From Podochytrium sp. JEL0797 (Eukaryota; Chytridiomycota; Chytridiomycetes; Chytridiales; Chytriomycetaceae), in contig JADGJG010000009.1 of assembly GCA_027596195.1 (NCBI GenBank), positions 1-64,000 of the forward strand: a stretch of 64,000 nucleotides of DNA, read 5' to 3'. Of this stretch, positions 16,643 to 54,228 are shown piece after piece. Positions within the stretch are counted from its first letter, which is position 1, and each line of letters starts with the position of its first letter. The notes under the pieces were generated by a model that saw only the letters and a program-made list of their open reading frames with translations, was not told where the DNA came from and did not search any database. A program made the translations under genes and the position numbers.

Positions 16643-17569
16643 ATGAGCCTGATGTACCAACCGCAGCAGACGATGATCAATCAGGGACCACCCCCTCCCG
16701 CGCCCCAGTTTGACAACGTGATGATGGGAATCGGATTTCTCGCGTCCGTGTGCTTTAGCCCTCCAATCGCTGCGATTGGCCTTTGCTGCGCGCCATTTGA
16801 AGACACGGTTTTTCGCGCCAGTTATTCGAGAGGAGTCTCGGCGGGTTTCACGTTGTGGGGAATCATTGTGATTGCACTTGCGTTCGTCTATCAAAATGAC
16901 GTGTGTGTGCCTACTTACTCGCTACTTTATTCCACGGATCCCACGTCCCTCTGCAACTCTGCATGCTCGCTTTACCTCTACTTTCTGATCCCAATCGGAG
17001 TCGTCAGTCTGATCATTGGACTCAGCATGTTCCGCAACAGCTTGTACATTTTGAACACGCCGTCGCGACGCGTTCAAAACCAAACCACGATCGTGATGAT
17101 TCCGGGACAGCCATACCAACAAATGAGTGCCCCACAGGGATACGTCCAGCAAGGATATAATTCGTCCCAACTAGGATATCCTCAGCAACAGCAGGGATAC
17201 CCGTCACGTCCGAATTCGCAACAAGGATACCAACCCCCTCCCCAACAAGGATACCAGCCACCTCCAAATCCCCAGCAAGGATATGCACAATCCCCACAAC
17301 AAGGATATCCACAGCCCGCGCAACAAGGATACCAGCCACAAGGATACGCACAATCTCCACAACAAGGATTCCCCCTGCAACAAGGGTACGCACCCAGACT
17401 CAGCTTGGAGAGCCTCGCGCTGCAAATTCAAGTTCCAAGACTCTTGGAGGTGAAAGGAGGAATGGATGAAGTCATGATGTCTGACCATCAGCAGCTGCAT
17501 GATAGGTATGGCATCACGAGTGATGAGTATATGAGACTCAAAACGTACAAAAAGTCAATTGGGCAATGA
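16643..17569 (+). CDS. Unrecognised multi-pass membrane protein, array member 1
   Basis: First and most divergent member of a five-gene tandem array; I recognise no known family. Residues ~25-50 ([20 protein letters not shown]), ~68-90 and ~115-140 look like three membrane spans. The loop before the third is Cys-containing ([10 protein letters not shown]). A long tail follows, made of Gln-Gln-Gly-Tyr-Pro-type repeats (about 14 QGY units), typical of flexible or phase-separating segments. The last ~57 residues form a different, well-structured module ([13 protein letters not shown] ... DRYGIT ... YKKSIGQ) shared almost unchanged with members 2 and 3. No intron is visible, unlike most neighbours. 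ATG 16643 lies only 56 bp after the capping-enzyme stop; an open frame extends further 5' without ATG. Confidence 0.8.
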
Positions 17570-17685
17570 GCGACAGCGGAGGATGTTTAAAGGGTAGATG
17601 GATCGGCGTTATTTCTTTCCTTTTCTCTTTCGCATCAATCAAATCTTCTTGTGCATTTTCGCGTGTTTTGAAATTTGTCACGAAA

Positions 17686-18537
17686 ATGTATGGAGGTTTC
17701 ACCCCAGCCGGCGGGGGCGGTGTACCGTTCGACGCAAATCCAACCGCTCCAGTCAATCCTCCAGAGTTTGATTTATCCATCCTGACAATGGGCTTATTCG
17801 CATCAATCTGTTTCACGCCATATTTGGCATCCATCGGCCTCTGTGTTGCTGATCGAGCAAACGTGATTTTTCGCGCTTCTTACAGCCGTGGCGTTGGAAT
17901 CGGTTTCTGCATCTATGGAGGCGCCATCATTGCTCTCACTGTTTACCTGAAAACATACGTTTGCCTCCCGCTGTGCATGGACAACCTGAATACGACATCG
18001 ACAAGCTACTATTCCGAAAGTAGCTTTTACGCGTACAACAGCTTTAACAGCTTCAATTACGAAGAAAACCTCAGCTACTGCGAAACATCCTGTTCATTAT
18101 GTTATCTGTCGTTTCCCTTCGCGATTATCGGGATTATCGTCGGATTCGCCATGATCAAACGCAGCAAGGTGATTCTGAACGGGACCGTTCGGCCAATAAT
18201 GATCCAGGTTGCAGCCAATTATCCGCCTGGAGCTATCGGATATCGACAACAGCATCGTCGCGCTCGGTTTGCTCAGAGACACGAGTTTCGCACGGCATCT
18301 CCGTACGCGTTTGCCGGGCCACCGAATCAACAGCCACCACCGACTTCGCCTTATGCACCTCGTAGGTTGAGTTTGGAGAGTCTCGCTCTTCAGATTCAGG
18401 TTCCCAAGCTGTTGGATGTGAAAGGGGGGATGAATGAAGTCATGATGTCGGATCACGAGCAGTTGCGTGATCGGTATGGAATAACTAATGAAGAGTTTAT
18501 GAGGATCAAGGCGTATAAAAAATCTATTGGGCAGTAA
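17686..18537 (+). CDS. Unrecognised multi-pass membrane protein, array member 2
   Basis: An intronless 283-residue member. The N-terminus (MYGGFTPAGGGGVPFDANP) leads into three likely membrane spans (about residues 33-57, 73-92 and 143-165). Between spans 2 and 3 is a loop rich in Tyr, Ser and Asn with Cys on both sides (YVCLPLC and CETSCSLC), possibly disulfide-bonded outside the cytosol. The QGY repeats of member 1 are replaced by a shorter Pro/Gln/Tyr/Ala region, followed by the same C-terminal module. Its first ~255 coding bases differ from member 3 at only about five sites, then the two diverge abruptly. The short leader TTTGTCACGAAAATG before the ATG is also copied in the array. Confidence 0.85.
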   Translation: MYGGFTPAGGGGVPFDANPTAPVNPPEFDLSILTMGLFASICFTPYLASIGLCVADRANVIFRASYSRGVGIGFCIYGGAIIALTVYLKTYVCLPLCMDNLNTTSTSYYSESSFYAYNSFNSFNYEENLSYCETSCSLCYLSFPFAIIGIIVGFAMIKRSKVILNGTVRPIMIQVAANYPPGAIGYRQQHRRARFAQRHEFRTASPYAFAGPPNQQPPPTSPYAPRRLSLESLALQIQVPKLLDVKGGMNEVMMSDHEQLRDRYGITNEEFMRIKAYKKSIGQ

Positions 18538-18654
18538 ACGGCAGCGGAGGGTGGATGTGTTTAGCGCTATTTCTTTCCTTTCCCTTTACTAAGTAATCTT
18601 ATCGTTTCTCGCGTGCACGCATTTTAGGCGGGGTTTTGAAATTGTCACGAAAAT

Positions 18655-19413
18655 ATGTATGGAGGTTTCACCCCAGCCGGCGCGGGCGGTGTACCGTTCG
18701 ACGCAAATCCAATCGCTCCAGTCAATCCTCCAGAGTTTGATTTATCCATCCTGACAATGGGCTTATTCGCATCAATCTGTTTCACGCCATATTTGGCATC
18801 CATCGGCCTCTGTGTTGCTGATCGAGCAAACGTGATTTTTCGCGCTTCTTACAGCCGTGGCGTTGGAATCGGTTTCTGCATATATGGAGGCGCCATCCTT
18901 GCTCTCACCTCGTATCTGAAATCATATGTCTGCGTCCCGATGTGCATGGACAGCATGAACACGACATCGTCCCGTTACTACACGTACAATAGCTTCGAAT
19001 ACGCATACAACAGCAGCTACTGCGAATCATCCTGCTCATTATGTTATCTGTCGTTTCCGTTCGCGATTGTCGGGATTATCGTCGGATTCGCCATGATCAA
19101 ACGCAGCAAGATCATTCTGAACGGGTCTGTTCGGCCAATGATCCAGGTGACGGCGAGATATGCTCCTCCATACGCGTTTGCCGCGCCACCGTATCAACAG
19201 CCGTCATATCCACCACCGACTTCGCCTTATGCGTCTCGCAGATTGAGTTTGGAGAGTCTTGCACTGCAGATTCAGGTTCCGAAGCTGTTGGACGTGAGAG
19301 GGGGGATTGATGAAGTGATGGTGTTGGATCACCAGCAGTTGCGCGATCGGTATGGGATAACGAATGAAGAGTATATGAGGATCAAGGCGTATAAGAAATC
19401 AATTGGGCAGTGA
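18655..19413 (+). CDS. Unrecognised multi-pass membrane protein, array member 3
   Basis: An intronless 252-residue member with the same plan as member 2: Gly/Pro-rich start, three likely spans, Tyr/Ser-rich Cys-flanked loop (shorter here), Pro/Tyr linker (PPYQQPSYPPPTSPY) and the C-terminal module ending YMRIKAYKKSIGQ. In the module it differs from member 2 at a handful of positions (GGIDEVMVLDHQQL here, GGMNEVMMSDHEQL there). The upstream leader is again close to TTGTCACGAAAAT. A poly-G tract of about 14 follows the stop (about 19422-19436). Confidence 0.85.
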   Translation: MYGGFTPAGAGGVPFDANPIAPVNPPEFDLSILTMGLFASICFTPYLASIGLCVADRANVIFRASYSRGVGIGFCIYGGAILALTSYLKSYVCVPMCMDSMNTTSSRYYTYNSFEYAYNSSYCESSCSLCYLSFPFAIVGIIVGFAMIKRSKIILNGSVRPMIQVTARYAPPYAFAAPPYQQPSYPPPTSPYASRRLSLESLALQIQVPKLLDVRGGIDEVMVLDHQQLRDRYGITNEEYMRIKAYKKSIGQ

Positions 19414-19508
19414 ACGATAGTGGGGGGGGGGGGGGGTTTCTGGATTTGGTCGGCGCGTCGCCGAAGTAATCAAATTCTTTTGTTGGGAGTTGAAAATTTG
19501 TCACGAAA

Positions 19509-20111
19509 ATGCCGTTCGACGCAGATCCGATCGATCCAGTCATTCCACTACAGTTCGATCTATTGATCCTGGCGATAGGCTTGCTCGTGTCTATTTTCTT
19601 CACACCATGTTTGGCGTCTATCGGCCTCTTCGTGGCGGATCGAGCGCTCCTCGTTTTTCGCGCGTCGTACAGTCGTGGCGTTGGAATCGGCTTCTGCATT
19701 AGCGGAGTAGGCATCATTGCTCTTACCGTCTCCCTCAAACTATTTATTTGTCTCCCAATGTGCTCGGAGAGTTATTACTCGGGCAGCAGTTTCGGATCAC
19801 TACCCCTCAACAGCTCCAATACTAACGGCTCCACTCCTATCGCGAAAAATAACATCGCCAACGACGAAACCCTCAGCTCCTGCGATGCATCCTGTTCATT
19901 GTATTATTTGGGGTTCCTTTTCGCAATTATCTCTTTTATAGCTGGAGTCGTGATGATCAAACGCAGCAAGGTGATTCTCACCGGGTCTGTTTGGCCAATG
20001 AGCCAGGGAGCAGCCGGCCATGGTGTCGGATCACGAAAAGTTGCGTGATCGGTATGGGATAACAAAGGAGAATATAGGATTAGGGCGTACAAAAAATCAA
20101 TTGGGCAGTGA
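19509..20111 (+). pseudogene. Array member 4, C-terminally decayed
   Basis: The open frame (19509-20048, 179 residues) starts at MPFDADPIDPVIP, lacking the Gly-rich leader of members 2 and 3, keeps the three spans and the Cys-flanked loop, then ends in an unrelated tail after VILTGSVWPMSQG. Immediately downstream and in another frame, 20024-20111 still reads SDHEKLRDRYGIT and then the degraded end of the C-terminal module. A deletion removed the linker and the front of the module and shifted the frame. The truncated product could still be made as a membrane protein without the module, so pseudogene status is an inference. Confidence 0.7.
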
Positions 20112-20215
20112 ACGATAGCGGAGGATGGATTTGGTCGGCGCTATTTCTTTTTTTCTTTCGCTTGTCGCCGAAGTAATCAATTTATAACTTATGTTTCGGA
20201 AAAAATTGTCACGCA

Positions 20216-20692
20216 ATGCCGTTCGACGCAGATCCGATCGCTCCAGTTATTCCACTAGACTTCGATGCATTGATCCTAGTAATGGGCCTGCTCGCGTCTA
20301 TTTGCTTCACCCCTTACTTGGCGTCCATCGGCCTCTTCGTGGCGGATCGAGCACTCCTCGTCTTTCGCGCGTCCTACAGTCGTGGCGTTGGAATCGGCTT
20401 CTGCATTAACGGATTAGGCTGCATTCTTCTTACCCTCTATCTCAAAATCCATTGTATCCTAATGTGCTCGGAAACTTCATATTCGGACAGCAGTTCCAGA
20501 TCTCTGTCGCTCAACGGCTCCGATATCATACCCGATAACTACTTCAATTACGAGGAAGATCGAAGCTCCTGAGATGCTTGTTCATTGTATTATATCGGGT
20601 TCCTTTTCACTATTATCGCATTTATCATTGGAGTGGTGATGATTAAACGAAGCAGCGTGATTCTAAACGGGTCCGTTCGGCCAATGAGATAA
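20216..20692 (+). pseudogene. Array member 5, interrupted by a TGA
   Basis: The frame opens at MPFDADPIAPVIP and runs through two spans to 20572, where a TGA replaces the TGC (Cys) found at this position in member 4. The same frame then continues without further stops through DACSLYYIGFLFTII and VILNGSVRPM to a TAA at 20690-20692. Behind it a short segment (about 20668-20730) is duplicated, and a few codons recalling MMSDYEQL remain near 20740-20760. The linker and most of the C-terminal module are gone. This is the most decayed member of the array. Confidence 0.8.
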
Positions 20693-26462: not shown

Positions 26463-26900
26463 CGCCCGGTTTCGAAAATCACTTTCCCTGGCGACAACGC
26501 GTCTGGATCGGCAGACGTCCCTCCTAAAACTGATTAGTATCGATAAGTTGGTGCCAACAAAGTTGGCGAGAGCTGGATGTGGGGGTTGAAAGGAGAGGCA
26601 GGGAAAGGATTGAAATGGAAGAGACCAACCAACAGAGCTCTTGTGGGTGAAGGTAAAGAAGGTAAGAGCACGTGACGAAGCAGGAGAGGAAAGTGGGTAG
26701 TGCGGCAATCTCCAGTTTTGATGAGATCAAAATGGAAAATTCGAGCATTTTGATACCTCTTGCATGGGTTGCCAAATTAATCTATGGAGATCCATTTTTG
26801 ATCTCTGGTCAGTCAAAACAAAAAAAATATAAATAGCGCGCCGTTTCCCCTCCCAACATTCTCACATTCAAACAACTCCCATCCAACCCATTGATCAGAA
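26463..26900. other. Divergent intergenic region before lectin 1
   Basis: About 440 bp between the CREST-like gene and lectin 1. Near the lectin side are the TATA box and initiator-like block described separately. No other element or ORF is convincing. Confidence 0.6.
26828..26862 (+). promoter_or_regulatory. TATA box and conserved core promoter of lectin 1
   Basis: TATAAATA at 26828-26835, about 70 bp before the ATG, is followed by GCGCGCCGTTTCCCCTCCCA. Nearly the same block occurs 50-60 bp before lectin 2, and both genes share TTGATCAGAA just before the ATG. Confidence 0.75.
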
Positions 26901-27458
26901 ATGATCCTTTCCAACGTTCTCGCTCTCGGCCTCGGCCTTCTCGCGGTCCCCAACGCAGTCAACGCGATCGCGGGAGTACCAGCAGACTACACCTCGTTTC
27001 AAATGCAATCGAAAGGAAGCAGCAGCAACGTTGTCGACTTGCCCTGGGGACAGGGCCAAGGCACCCAACTTATCATGTGGGGGGCCAACAACGGCGAGAA
27101 TCAACGGTGGATGTACGTCCAAGACACGGGGAGCTTGCACAATATGCAAAACAAAATGTGCTTGGATGTGTTTGGTTTCAACTATTCGAATGGGGCGAAT
27201 GTGGTGGTTTGGCCGTGTAATGGGTATGTCAACCAGAGCTGGCGGTTTGAAACCATCAATTGGAGCCCGGGTGGCCGGTGGTACTTTATCCGCGCGACTG
27301 GTAATCCCAAGTATTGCTTGGCCAACTTGAATGGAAGCGGGAAAGGAGCCCGTGTTGGTTTGATGGAATGTGGCGTCAACAGTGATACATACTGGTCCCT
27401 TGAGAGATACGGACCGGTGGAGGGATGGGGAGGTGGTGCTAATGGCAACTTGGGTTGA
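26901..27458 (+). CDS. Secreted R-type (ricin-B-like) beta-trefoil lectin 1
   Basis: A 185-residue protein with a signal peptide (residues 1-22, hydrophobic, ending near VNAIA) and a carbohydrate-binding domain with Gln-x-Trp hallmarks: NQRWMY, NQSWRF and DTYWSLE. Two Cys pairs typical of the fold are visible around KMCLDVFGFN/VWPCNG and KYCLANLNG/LMECG. No enzymatic chain is attached, so it is a stand-alone lectin module and not a toxin in itself. It probably acts outside the cell, in adhesion or carbohydrate binding; the ligand is unknown. It ends in a Gly-rich tail (GWGGGANGNLG). There is no intron. Lectin 2 (28190) is a close tandem copy. Confidence 0.88.
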   Translation: MILSNVLALGLGLLAVPNAVNAIAGVPADYTSFQMQSKGSSSNVVDLPWGQGQGTQLIMWGANNGENQRWMYVQDTGSLHNMQNKMCLDVFGFNYSNGANVVVWPCNGYVNQSWRFETINWSPGGRWYFIRATGNPKYCLANLNGSGKGARVGLMECGVNSDTYWSLERYGPVEGWGGGANGNLG

Positions 27459-28189
27459 GGGGGGATGAAGGAGTTGGTGGATGGGTTTCTTCTTTTCTCT
27501 TCTCATTTCTTTTCTATTTTTTGGATTTGTGCTTTGACGTGAGAAAAACATGGTGTTATATAGTCACTTTTAATGGTGATATAAAGTTGTCAATTTTTGG
27601 ACAAGAAAAGTGAGAAACTGGCTTGGGCGCATGCCTGCCATGAACACATAGTTGCAATACTATTTTATCCGGTAAACTAGCCAATGCATTTCATAAATAT
27701 GTAGAAACTGGGAAACACGGTGCGTATTGGTTGGGGTTTTTTTTTGTGGGTGAGGTCGGGCAAGGTGCACATCGACCTTGTCAAAAGAACCGATTTCGAA
27801 GTTCAATTTGATGAATCAGCAGGTTAAGCGTTTGAAAACCCTTAATTTTTCTCAATAATGCTCTATGAGGTCTGGGAATAGGGAGGAAAGAGGCAAACAA
27901 GATATTGAACCCTTGAGGGGGATGAGGGGAGAGAGAAGAGAAGCCTTATTGAAGTGGCGAAATTTAAGGGCTGGGTGGAGAATTGTGGATCAATGGAATC
28001 TTCGAACCTGTTGATACCACCCAGCAAAGCGTTGGAAGTGAGTGGCGACCGCTGAGGGTTGTTTTTTAATCACCGGGCTTGCCACCTCGATGCTTGGAGA
28101 TCGATTTCTCGCTCCACTCAAAAGAAAGGGATAAATAGCGCGCCATTTCCCCTCCCAACATTCAACAACCCATCCACCCATTGATCAGA
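27459..28189. other. Intergenic region between lectins
   Basis: About 730 bp without a supportable gene. It holds the 3' end of lectin 1, AT-rich sequence and, at its end, the copied core promoter of lectin 2. Confidence 0.6.
28130..28161 (+). promoter_or_regulatory. Core promoter of lectin 2, copy of lectin 1 promoter
   Basis: GATAAATAGCGCGCCATTTC followed by CCCTCCCAACATTC matches the lectin 1 promoter except for a weakened TATA (GATAAATA for TATAAATA) and one base in the GC block. Confidence 0.72.
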
Positions 28190-28777
28190 ATGATCCTTGC
28201 CAACGCTCTCGCTCTCGCCTTTGGCCTTCTCGTGGTCCCCAACGCAGTCAACGCGATCGCAGGAGTACCAGCCGACTACTCGTCGTTCGTGCTTCAATCG
28301 AGAGGAAGCAGCAGCAACGTCCTCGACTTGCCATGGGGACAGGGCCAAGGCACCCAAGTCCAGATGTGGGGAGCGAATCACGGGTGGAATCAAGAGTGGC
28401 TGTATGTCCAAGAGACGGGAAGCTTGCACAACATGCAAAACAACATGTGCTTGGACGTATTTGGCTTCAACTATTCGAACGGGGCGAATGTGGTTGTTTG
28501 GCCATGCAATGGGTATGCCAACCAGGTTTGGCGTTTTGAAACTATCAATTGGAGCCCGGCCGGCACTTGGTATATTATACGCGCAGGCAATTCCAAGTAT
28601 TGCTTGGCCAATTTGAATGGAAGCGGTCAAGGAGCTCGTGTTGGTTTGATGGAATGTGGCGGGAACCGTGATACGTACTGGTCGCTTGAGAATTATGGAC
28701 CGGCGGACGGTACAGGGGATGGTGGGAATGGCAAGGTTGAGTGTTTCAACGGAAAATGCTGGGTGAATCCGATCTGA
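28190..28777 (+). CDS. Secreted R-type (ricin-B-like) beta-trefoil lectin 2
   Basis: A tandem paralogue of the gene at 26901: same signal peptide pattern (MILANALALAFGLLVVPNAV), the same trefoil motifs (NQEWLY, NQVWRF, DTYWSLE) and the same Cys pattern. It carries an added C-terminal tail with two more Cys (VECFNGKCWVNPI) that lectin 1 lacks, which might form a disulfide loop. Differences cluster in surface-exposed parts of the first lobe. It has no intron. Confidence 0.88.
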   Translation: MILANALALAFGLLVVPNAVNAIAGVPADYSSFVLQSRGSSSNVLDLPWGQGQGTQVQMWGANHGWNQEWLYVQETGSLHNMQNNMCLDVFGFNYSNGANVVVWPCNGYANQVWRFETINWSPAGTWYIIRAGNSKYCLANLNGSGQGARVGLMECGGNRDTYWSLENYGPADGTGDGGNGKVECFNGKCWVNPI

Positions 28778-47805: not shown

Positions 47806-49642
47806 ATGGGAAAACCAAAGTCCAACAATTCCACCGTCAGTGCCGTTCAGCAGAACATGCAGAACATGCCGGCTGCAAATGCCAAGATGGCCATGAACAA
47901 AGTGAGTGCTGACACTTCATTTCTGTTTATAGTACAATGTTTCAACTTCATTCACCTCATGTTTAGCCAATGGCTCCTGCTGCCAAGCCGCAATCACGTC
48001 CTCAAACCCCTGCGCCAGCCGCTCCACTTCAACAGAAGGCTGCTCAAGCAAAGCCCCAAACTCCAACGCAACAGAAATCTGTCCAAGCGAAGCCCCAAAC
48101 TCCTGTGCAGCAAAATTCTGCTGCCATGAAGCCTGTGACGCCGATGCAAAATTTTAAGCGCATGAACCCGCAAGCAAAAGCTCAACTTGTGAGTCTTTTT
48201 ATTCTCCTTCGCGCTGCCGCCATGTGAAAAGCTTACGTTTTGGTTCAACAGGTTCAAGCAAACGCTACACTTCAACAGTTGGCTGCCCAAATGAAGTCCC
48301 AAATCCCAATGCAACAGAAACCGGTCCAAGCAAAGGCCCAAACTCCTACGCAGCAGAAGTCTGCTCCAACGAAGCCAGAGACGCCGATGCAAAACTTTAA
48401 GCGCATGAACCCACAAGCACGTGCTCTACTTGTGAGTTTTTTTCTGCTTCGCGCTACGACCACGTGCAAAAGCTTACGTTTTGTTTCAACAGGTTCAGGC
48501 AAACACTCCACCTGCCGCACTTCAACAGATGGCTGTCCAAATGAAGCCCCCAACCCCAATGCAACAGAAATCTGTTCAAGCGAAGCCCCAAACTCCTACG
48601 CAGCAGAAGTCGGCTCCAATGAACCCAGAGACGCCGATGCAAATTTTTAAGCGCATGAACCCGCAAGCAAAAGCTCACCTTGTGAGTCTTTTTATTCTGC
48701 TTCGCGCTGCCGCCATGTGCAAAGCTTACGTTTTGATTCAACAGGTTCAGGCAAACAAGGTATGTGAATCCACAATCATCTTCTCTTAACACCAAACAAC
48801 AGGCTTCTGCTCCTCAACAGGAGGCTGTTCCAATTAAGGGGAGACACATGCAACGCGCCACTTCTGCCAAGAAGTATGACTTGGTGAGTGCAACGACACC
48901 ATCTTCCCGTGCCCCAAATCTGACCACACATTCCTGGCAGGGACCTGGATACGAAATTCACATGATGCCAACCATGTTCCAAGAACCAGCCTCTTGGACC
49001 AATGGTCAGGTTCCATCTCAAGCGCCTCGCCGTCTGAACAAGCAACCGTCGTTCCAGCAAGCGACTCCCAAGCAGATGAGCAAGCAAAACTCATTCCAAG
49101 CGGTCGCGGCAGTACCTCCCAGACAAATGAGCAAGCAGACCTCGACTGTTTCGCAAAAGCAGCTCAGCAAGCAAAACTCGTTCAACAATGCCTCCACTGC
49201 TGGGGCCGCTGAGGTCTTCAACTTGCAATTCCTCTTCCCAGAGAACGCCAAGTTTGCCACTTGTGCTCCAGTTCCACCCAAACGCATTGTGGGTCCTCAG
49301 AAAATGAACCCTATGCAGCCAATGCAGCAGATGGCAATGCCAGCCAAGCCAATTCAGCAGAGATCCATGACGCCGGTGCAACAAAAGGGTGCTTTGGCCA
49401 AGCCACAAACGCCAGTGCAACAAGCCAAGCCCCAGACTCCTTTGCAACAAAGAATGCAAGCAGCCAGACCCATGACTCCAATGAAGGCGGCAGAGTCTTC
49501 CCAAATTGAAGATTGTCTCCTGAGCATGTTTTCAGAGCCCAAAGGATGGGCGACCATGGCTCCAACTTCCCCAAAGCGCCTATCTACGAGCCCAATCAAG
49601 GGATCCGTCAAGCAGCAGCCATCATCCCCAAAGAAGAAGTGA
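47806..49642 (+). CDS. Unrecognised low-complexity protein with triplicated exon, paralogue 1
   Basis: I recognise no family. Exons: 47806-47901, 47967-48188, 48252-48431, 48493-48681, a 15-nt microexon 48745-48759 (VQANK), 48803-48883, 48941-49642; all junctions are phase 0. Exons 2-4 are copies of one ~60-residue unit rich in Gln, Lys, Pro and Ala (PMQQK, VQAKPQTPTQQKS, ending MQNFKRMNPQAKA). Later exons carry QRATSAKKYDL, then GPGYEIHMMPTMFQEPASWT, shared with the gene at 52087, and MSKQNSF-type, Lys/Gln-rich repeats with SPKR/SPIK basic motifs at the end. The introns between the repeated exons are copies too. The product is probably disordered, basic and multivalent. The location is unknown; no signal peptide or membrane span is seen. 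Confidence 0.8.
48189..48744 (+). repeat. Exon-plus-intron unit copied in tandem
   Basis: The introns at 48189-48251 (63 bp), 48432-48492 (61 bp) and 48682-48744 (63 bp) are near-identical: the first and third differ at only three of 63 positions by my reading. The exons between them (180 and 189 nt, and the end of exon 2) repeat as well. The unit is about 240-250 bp. Confidence 0.88.
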
Positions 49643-52086: not shown

Positions 52087-54228
52087 ATGACTCGCAAGAC
52101 TGCAAACCAAAATGCCTCCGGCAATGCCACCGTTTCTGGAATCCAACAATCGCACACTGCCAATGTTCAGGCTGCCAAGAATGTCGCCTCTCCAAAGCCA
52201 CAGATGGCCGCTGCGAAATCTCCCTCGAAGCCATCGACTCCTGCACCAAAGAGTAATGTTGCGGCTGCCATGACGTCCAAGGTATTCTCCATCATGAAAC
52301 GCGGCGCTCGCCATTCATCATTTCTTCCCATATCAGCCTGCTACTCCTCAAGCACAAAAAGTTCAGGCGGCTCCAATGATGAAGGTTTGAAACAAGCTAT
52401 AATATTCAATCGACCATCAGTAAACAATTTCCTTTCGACAGCCTGCCTCTCCGCAAAAGACTCAAGTGGTCCCAGCCAAGGCTCAGACCACATCGAAGGT
52501 TGGCTTTCACGTCATTGCACATTCGAACTAAAATATGATTCCCGAACAGCCTTCGACTCCCCAAAAAATGTCTCACGCCTCTCCAATCATGTCACAACCA
52601 ATTCAGCGCGCCGCTTCTGCCAAAAAGTTTGATTTGGTAACGCAGAGTTTCTTTCGAGAACATTTGCATTTTCTAAATTTAGCGCGCAACAGGGAATCAG
52701 ATATGAAGTCTTCTGCCAGCCAAAATGGTTCCAAGAGCCCGAATCATGGACCAAAAACCAAACTATTTGTTACGTCCGCCGTGCTCCTGCAGCCCCCAAG
52801 CAATTGAACAAACAGCCATCATTCAAGGCCGCGACTCCAGTTGCCAGCAAACCAGCTACCCCAGCTCCCAAGGCACAACCCAACGTCAAAGGTGCCAAAG
52901 TTGCCCCTGCCACCTCCATCAAAGGAAAATCTGCAGTCAAATTGAACTCCCGCAACCAAAGACAACTCATTTTGAGACCCAAACTGGAGCTCGTCGTTTA
53001 CACCCCCTTATGGATTCAAGTCTACCACTGGGCGTACCTGAAACAACACCCGGAGGTGGCTCAGCGCTTCAAGAAACAGCAGCAGTCACGCGGCCGTTCT
53101 GCGGACAAGTTCAACCGGAATCAGAGGCTCGAGCAGCAAAAGCAGAGAGTTGTTGACCAACGCAAACCCAACGATAGACAGCAGCCAGTGACTCCCAAGC
53201 AGCAGATTTCTCGCCAGGCGTCTGCTATTTCGGCGGCCAAGTCTCCGGCACCCATGTCGCGTCAACAGTCTGGTACCGCAAAGTCCCCGGCTCTTTTGTC
53301 GCGTCAACAGTCGGCTGTTGCACCCAAGTCCCCGGCACCCATGTCGCGTCAGCAATCTGGTGCCGTTCCCAAGTCTCCAGCTCCTGTGTCCCGTCAGCAA
53401 TCTGGCATGAAGCAGACGAGCAAGCCGAACAGCCCCGCCAAGAAAAACGCGTCCGCTCCCGCCGACTGGCAAAACGCCATCTGGGCAGACTTCTACACTC
53501 CCAAACACCACGCATATGAAACCAAAACCCACATCTCAGCTCCTCCCCAGCCCATGGCCAACAAAAACAAACCCACAGTGAACGCCAAGCAACCCAACAA
53601 CAGCTTGAAGTCCAAGATCCCACCACCAAAGTCGGCCAAATCTCCTGAAATCTTCTCCTTCGTCAAGGCCACGACCCAGTCGGGTGCGTCCTCTGCCGCC
53701 CACAGTCGACAAACCTCGACCCAAGCGGTGCGCGTTTCGACCCCGGCTCCATTTAAGAAGCAAGCGTCTGCCTCCAGCCCCGTCGGAAACACCCCCGACG
53801 TGTTTGCCTTGTACATGGACCGCTCCCCAGTTTCCTCCAAGCCAACGAGTCGTCAAGCTTCCGCCAAGCCAACGACCCCAAGCCAAAAATACGCCGCCAT
53901 GAAATCCGCCAAGCCCAAGGCCGCCCCATACATGAACCTCAACAAACCCATTCCGCGTGAGATGTCCAACGCGTCTTCCGAGGGAAGCGACACGGCTGCC
54001 ATCAAGTTGTTCAACGACGCCAACGAGCGTGGAATCCAGATGCAGCCCATGTCGAAGCAGCAGTTGTTGCAGCAGCAGAAACAGCGTAAGGCAAAGCAAG
54101 GCAAGAAGCAAGCTAAGCAAGCCAAGCCGGCTGCTGCAGGAAACTCGTGGTTCACTCCAGCGGGGATTGCTGTTGCTTCGGCGATTGTCGCTATCGGTGG
54201 TGTCGGAATTAGTAATATGATGGGATGA
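52087..54228 (+). CDS. Unrecognised low-complexity tail-anchored protein, paralogue 2
   Basis: A paralogue of the gene at 47806. Exons: 52087-52281, 52337-52384 (48 nt), 52442-52498 (57 nt), 52550-52636 (87 nt), 52693-54228, all phase 0. The three short exons each begin with Pro-Ala/Ser-Thr/Ser-Pro-Gln, as if copied from one another. Shared with paralogue 1 are QRAASAKKFDL at an exon end, then GIRYEVFCQPKWFQEPESWT and LNKQPSF. The last exon holds a globular-looking patch (ELVVYTPLWIQVYHWAYLKQ), SPAPMSRQQSG-type repeats (five or so, with Lys-Ser-Pro sites) and a C-terminal hydrophobic helix (AGIAVASAIVAIGGVGISN), which suggests tail anchoring in a membrane. Confidence 0.8.
53259..53409 (+). 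repeat. Tandem Ser/Arg/Gln repeat in paralogue 2
   Basis: About five units of roughly 33-36 bp encoding SPAPMSRQQSG with variants (SPALLSRQQSA, SPAPVSRQQSG). Each has an Arg-Gln-Gln-Ser and a Lys-Ser-Pro site, good candidates for phosphorylation. Confidence 0.75.

Follow-up and report, generated by a model that had tools for sequence, protein, structure and literature searches.

Introduction

The internal duplication of the Arabidopsis gene TOUCH3, which is said to have been described by Knowles and McLysaght in 2006, is one of the closest parallels to the locus reported here. The tandem internal duplications of TOUCH3 are described as having taken in a whole existing intron and the exon sequence that flanks it on either side (PMC4974935, PMC2395259). 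One of these sources also describes how tandem duplication within a gene raises the intron number through introns that are newly made from exon sequence (PMC4974935). In Cryptococcus, the gene CNN00420 contains several near-identical introns, some of them identical, in a repetitive region for which unequal crossing over, conversion or slippage has been invoked; there the gain was checked by resequencing strains, among which the copy number differs (PMC2395259). The LRR genes of Tetrahymena carry 90-bp exon/intron arrays in phase 2, a feature of thousands of genes with 1 to 51 such exons per gene (PMC6564038). No paper was returned when full texts on Chytridiomycota were searched for ‘exon duplication’, which says little, and none of eight papers found to mention Podochytrium names JEL0797.

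Here we describe an array of three tandem exon-plus-intron units in Podochytrium sp. JEL0797, an aquatic chytrid fungus (Chytridiales, Chytriomycetaceae). The array lies in a gene that we call gene A, inside a window of 64,000 nucleotides (the whole stretch of DNA that was analysed) that forms part of a 118,455-bp contig in a 24.4-Mb assembly. The best explanation of the whole, to which we assign a probability of about 0.85, is that a segment that began midway through one exon and ended in the next, with one complete intron in between, was tandemly duplicated and multiplied to three.

Results

Structure of the array in gene A

Three units of 285, 241 and 252 bp lie in tandem at 47967-48759 on the forward strand (Table 1). 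A repeat search placed 249-nt copies at 48015, 48258 and 48508, with ungapped identities to the first copy of 100, 68 and 88%; TRF reported 48025-48757 (period 250, 3.0 copies, score 1024); and self-BLAST aligned 48020-48505 with 48263-48757 at 83% identity and an E value of 3e-146, which places the repeat far beyond chance. Across the repeat search, TRF, self-BLAST and an alignment of the units, the head-to-tail homology of the copies spans both exon and intron. The first three of these analyses confirm the three-copy exon-plus-intron array that the original prediction had reported; its description of the repeated unit as exons 2-4 with their introns is right as to the three copies, but the 5′ sequence of exon 2 lies outside the unit.

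Exons 2, 3 and 4 comprise 74, 60 and 63 codons, and the introns directly 3′ of them 63, 61 and 63 nt; each of these introns has the donor GTGAGT, a branch-like CTTAC and the acceptor CAACAG. The seven-exon model of gene A translates to 494 amino acids with no internal stop. Since the lengths of all seven exons are divisible by three, all six introns are in phase 0, so the phase-0 junctions claimed at the outset are borne out. The same properties keep the frame when a unit is added: each copy contributes 60-63 residues, in line with the figure of about 60 proposed earlier. Judged from sequence alone, the array introns retain their splice signals and the gene retains its frame. The three introns are homologous to one another, and a search of the organism's own assembly with intron 4 gave three matches at E values up to 1, all of them in the array. 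These observations support the view that the units are a tandem duplication that carried an existing intron with it, as had been predicted, and each copy is predicted to be spliced.

Three other derivations found no support. Origin of the array introns from intron 1 was considered, and in shuffle comparisons every intron pair outside the array stayed at or above 0.05; derivation of the end of exon 2 from that of exon 1 gave 0.148 for the exon tails in shuffles. Nor does the locus resemble intron creation from a duplicated AGGT exon segment: the unit alignment pairs intron with intron and exon with exon.

Table 1. Parts of the gene A model and of the array within it
Feature	Coordinates	Strand	Basis
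Exon 1 of gene A, 32 codons, outside array	47806..47901	+	Model; N-termini of P0002, P0003 and P0004 match
Intron 1, 65 nt, unlike array introns	47902..47966	+	Model, shuffle comparison
Exon 2: 5′ stretch of its own, followed by the coding portion of unit 1, starting around 48018-48027	47967..48188	+	Model, unit alignment
Intron 2 (unit 1 intron), 63 nt, in-frame TGA	48189..48251	+	Model
Exon 3 (unit 2 coding part), 60 codons, VQAN start	48252..48431	+	Model, unit alignment
Intron 3 (unit 2 intron), 61 nt, frameshift if kept	48432..48492	+	Model; removed in P0001 too
Exon 4 (unit 3 coding part), 63 codons, VQAN start	48493..48681	+	Model, unit alignment
Intron 4 (unit 3 intron), 63 nt, open frame, coding in deposited protein	48682..48744	+	Model, assembly search
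Exon 5, 15-nt VQANK, putative ancestral exon; first 12 nt probably copied into units 2 and 3	48745..48759	+	Model; inference
Intron 5, 43 nt	48760..48802	+	Model; removed in P0001 too
Exon 6, 27 codons, resembles exon 4 of gene B	48803..48883	+	Model
Intron 6, 57 nt	48884..48940	+	Model; removed in P0001 too
Exon 7, including stop codon	48941..49642	+	Model

Divergence and history of the copies

Over 162 shared exon sites, 29 differences separate units 1 and 2, 22 separate units 1 and 3, and 21 separate units 2 and 3 (13-18%). In gap-free columns of the introns, the corresponding counts are 8 of 60, 3 of 63 and 6 of 60 (5-13%), and the pairs that involve unit 2 have indels in addition. The value of 3 of 63 exactly reproduces the one that accompanied the original prediction; its phrase of almost no change in the introns suits that pair, but not pairs 1-2 and 2-3. 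A Nei-Gojobori-type count gave dS values of 0.37, 0.27 and 0.24 for pairs 1-2, 1-3 and 2-3, each derived from 34-35 synonymous sites, and dN values of 0.17, 0.12 and 0.12. With exon copies, introns and synonymous sites (dS 0.24-0.37) this far apart, to call the amplification recent was an overstatement, and divergence of such a size does not look like strain-level change.

Exon and intron differences were not significantly different from each other in any pair (p = 0.54 for 1-2, 0.06 for 1-3 and 0.65 for 2-3). A comparison of dS with intron distance had suggested that the introns are more conserved than silent exon sites; this idea was dropped, as 5 of 17 fourfold sites and 8 of 60 intron sites were variable, a difference that is not significant (Fisher p = 0.15). 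As for the order of descent, the odd copy tends to be unit 1 in the first 110 columns and unit 2 in the rest (permutation p = 0.037, in one post hoc test): the 5′ exon part tends to join units 2 and 3, and the last 100 bp join units 1 and 3, so the history of the copies is not clean. We take this as only a hint that units 1 and 3 may have undergone exchange or conversion.

Probable breakpoints and the VQANK exon

The original prediction had noted that the VQANK exon matches the first codons of the unit, and so it does: its first 12 nt are identical to the start of exon 4 and match that of exon 3 with one mismatch. VQAN stands at the start of exon 5 and of the second and third units, whereas the first unit does not begin with it; exon 2 has a 5′ part of its own, and its homology to the other units starts at or slightly before LQQ. 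This distribution points to a duplication whose 3′ end fell inside exon 5, and the most fitting reading of VQANK is that of an ancestral exon lying downstream, not of a truncated copy. The proposal that it is a truncated fourth copy or its scar, that is, the remnant of a fourth unit shortened by deletion, draws on the fact that VQANK begins as units 2 and 3 do. However, such a remnant would demand an additional deletion that stopped at a functional donor, whereas a tandem duplication ending within an existing small exon yields the same pattern with no deletion at all; it is for this reason that we prefer an ancestral exon that was entered by the 3′ end of the duplication. The K|[A/P]S[A/T]PQ junction behind VQANK is moreover found in the model of a neighbouring paralogue, gene B, which suggests that this exon end is old. 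A fourth-unit remnant is on these grounds unlikely.

Intron 4 and the deposited protein

A protein from this locus has been deposited (P0001; hypothetical protein HDU98_011709, Podochytrium sp. JEL0797, 396 residues), and it is rebuilt exactly by joining 48291-48431, 48493-48759, 48803-48883 and 48941-49642. It starts inside the array at an internal Met, omitting exons 1 and 2 and with them the conserved N-terminus; it excises introns 3, 5 and 6, but reads intron 4 as 21 coding residues, VSLFILLRAAAMCKAYVLIQQ. If this reading were correct, intron 4 would be coding, always or in some transcripts, and the third unit would run through to VQANK. The 63 nt of the intron are indeed open in frame, and AlphaFold2, run on P0001 with a four-sequence alignment, returned a mean pLDDT of 53.0, with 238 of the 396 residues below 50, and one long confident helix (residues 104-137, pLDDT block means 92-97) that consists of the 21 residues of intron 4 plus 6-7 on each side.

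Against coding use, intron 4 is identical at 60 of 63 positions to intron 2, which bears a stop, and homologous to intron 3, which shifts the frame; none of the three has lost its donor, branch-like motif or acceptor. The stop-forming base occurs in copy 1 only, copies 2 and 3 having another base in common, and hence the open frame of copy 3 is no change of its own. The intron 4 peptide is also more hydrophobic than the protein (V/I/L/F/C/Y/W at 11 of 21 positions vs 13%), although such residues number up to 9 in a 21-residue window of the protein. Structure prediction often gives a hydrophobic stretch a confident helix. A further point is that P0001, with its internal Met start, does not include the conserved N-terminus. 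We judge that the treatment of intron 4 in P0001 is an annotation error, and that a coding role for this intron is improbable.

A related scenario, which we regard as very unlikely, is that a copied intron is in the course of becoming coding. Copies 1 and 2 must be spliced (because of the stop and the frameshift, respectively), while copy 3, being open, would be partly retained and would place a hydrophobic helix in a disordered protein; retention, together with skipping of the frame-neutral exon copies, would then give rise to several protein lengths.

The two weakest alternatives can be dealt with briefly. Short arrays are open to mis-assembly, and the original prediction had raised this concern, but the copies differ at 21-29 of 162 exon sites, with indels of their own in each, and divergence on this scale in exons and introns speaks for diverged copies and not for one sequence repeated by the assembler; the concern is largely answered, and a single unit written three times is hardly credible. 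Three similar short introns within one gene might also bring to mind an introner-like mobile element that inserted at three corresponding sites; this is rejected as highly improbable, since the exon parts are homologous too and intron 4 has no match elsewhere in its own 24.4-Mb assembly.

Relatives of gene A and gene B

Two protein searches, each scoring among the 7996 candidates with the most shared words, matched at least five proteins besides P0001. Three of these, P0002 (Siphonaria sp. JEL0065), P0003 (Obelidium mucronatum) and P0004 (Chytriomyces hyalinus), have the N-terminus and KP.TP-type repeats in common with gene A; at the protein level, and among the matches listed, the FKRMNPQA...VQAN unit is absent from all three. 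This makes the unit a probable peculiarity of the Podochytrium line, though it may have been lost in other lines. Elsewhere in these proteins, the segment AKKYDLGPGYE stands before FNLQFLF in Podochytrium (48803-49642) and after it in P0002 and P0003, and a (M/L)F.EP..W-like motif, compared by eye between 48803-49642 and P0002, P0003 and P0004, recurs several times per protein.

Gene B (52087-54228, forward strand) has a 640-aa model, and P0005 (Siphonaria) and P0006 (Entophlyctis) resemble it by eye. P0002 and P0005 come from Siphonaria contigs of equal length and may be linked there as genes A and B are here. The K|[A/P]S[A/T]PQ and DL|G junctions are common to the gene A and gene B models, suggesting that an older exon frame was already in place when the array arose within it; the flanking exons of the two genes are alike at 1 in 1001 shuffles, the minimum possible. 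Less confidence can be placed in the gene B model: the donors in it are less regular, and a branch-like motif of the kind sought is missing from two of the four introns. Its short phase-0 exons begin PATPQ, PASPQ and PSTPQ, and the intervening introns are unlike each other; these exons may be an older version of the exon-unit multiplication proposed for gene A. TRF also found a 42-45-bp coding repeat in its last exon. Pfam gave no family for P0001-P0003 or for gene B at 52699-54228.

Q, P, A and K abound in the modelled gene A protein, which has 64 K/R vs 12 D/E residues. Eleven of its 18 [S/T]P sites have K or R closely after them, and exons 2, 3 and 4 hold 4, 2 and 4 such sites. From this composition we would guess at a disordered, basic substrate of proline-directed kinases.

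Repeats in the surroundings

The wider sample comprised 258,455 bp: the window and 20 further stretches, 6 of them on the same contig. TRF found two arrays with a period of at least 60 in it, namely that of gene A and, just past the window, a 222-bp tandem array of 2.8 copies (L007:121-741; 64121-64741 of the same contig). The two best frames of the latter stretch contain 5 and 6 stops, and no exon-intron pattern was seen on reading its DNA. Self-BLAST of the sample gave 36 rows of local direct repeats. Besides the gene A array, we inspected the DNA of L007 and L020 and the ORF lists of L020, L021 and L026, and counted frames for 13 stretches, the array included; because introns were inspected in these few stretches, the sample does not amount to a count of intron-bearing duplications. 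WSC-domain repeats on the reverse strand of L020 (2333-3040) each appear to consist of one exon and an intron, so units of this make-up are not unique to gene A.

Two further repeats lie in the window itself. DNA self-comparison revealed a tandem cluster of paralogues at 17395-20688, one member of which (17605-18534) has no Pfam match, and at 26819-28741 there are two tandem copies with 83% identical DNA, the first encoding a ricin-B-type lectin domain.

Discussion

We envisage that the starting gene encoded a low-complexity, probably disordered chytrid protein, and that the segment first duplicated would have begun midway along exon 2, taken in one whole phase-0 intron and ended after the first four codons of small exon 5. 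A second step, for which unequal crossing over or slippage between units is the most likely mechanism, though a conjectural one, would then have raised the number of units to three. Each duplication would create a chimeric exon, in which the VQAN codons that open the small exon are fused to the latter part of exon 2. It would also copy the intron, with donor, branch-like motif and acceptor all included, thereby adding one complete intron per copy; the original VQANK would be left at the end of the array. For the protein, an extra copy would mean 60-63 more residues, with their [S/T]P sites and positive charge.

Coming from a chytrid lineage that has received little study, the locus is a small and clean illustration of how a gene can gain introns and protein length together. 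Such a joint rise occurs when the endpoints of a duplication fall within phase-0 exons, and the copies here are alike enough to reveal the breakpoints. Arrays of this type can also mislead gene prediction: the deposited protein is without the first two exons and appears to contain an intron.

When the array is set beside the systems with which we began, TOUCH3 is alike in that an existing intron was copied whole with flanking exon parts; TOUCH3 is a plant gene, likened here by description only. This separates the Podochytrium array from the duplications in which new introns were made from exon sequence (PMC4974935): here an existing intron appears to have been copied whole. With CNN00420 it shares a fungal gene and the expansion of an intron-bearing repeat, but whereas some CNN00420 introns are identical, the Podochytrium copies have diverged, and they come from one assembly. 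The Tetrahymena LRR arrays likewise consist of a tandemly multiplied exon-plus-intron unit with a single intron phase throughout; that phase is 2, in thousands of genes, compared with phase 0 and three units in the one gene found here. The array is a good new example of a process already known from other organisms.
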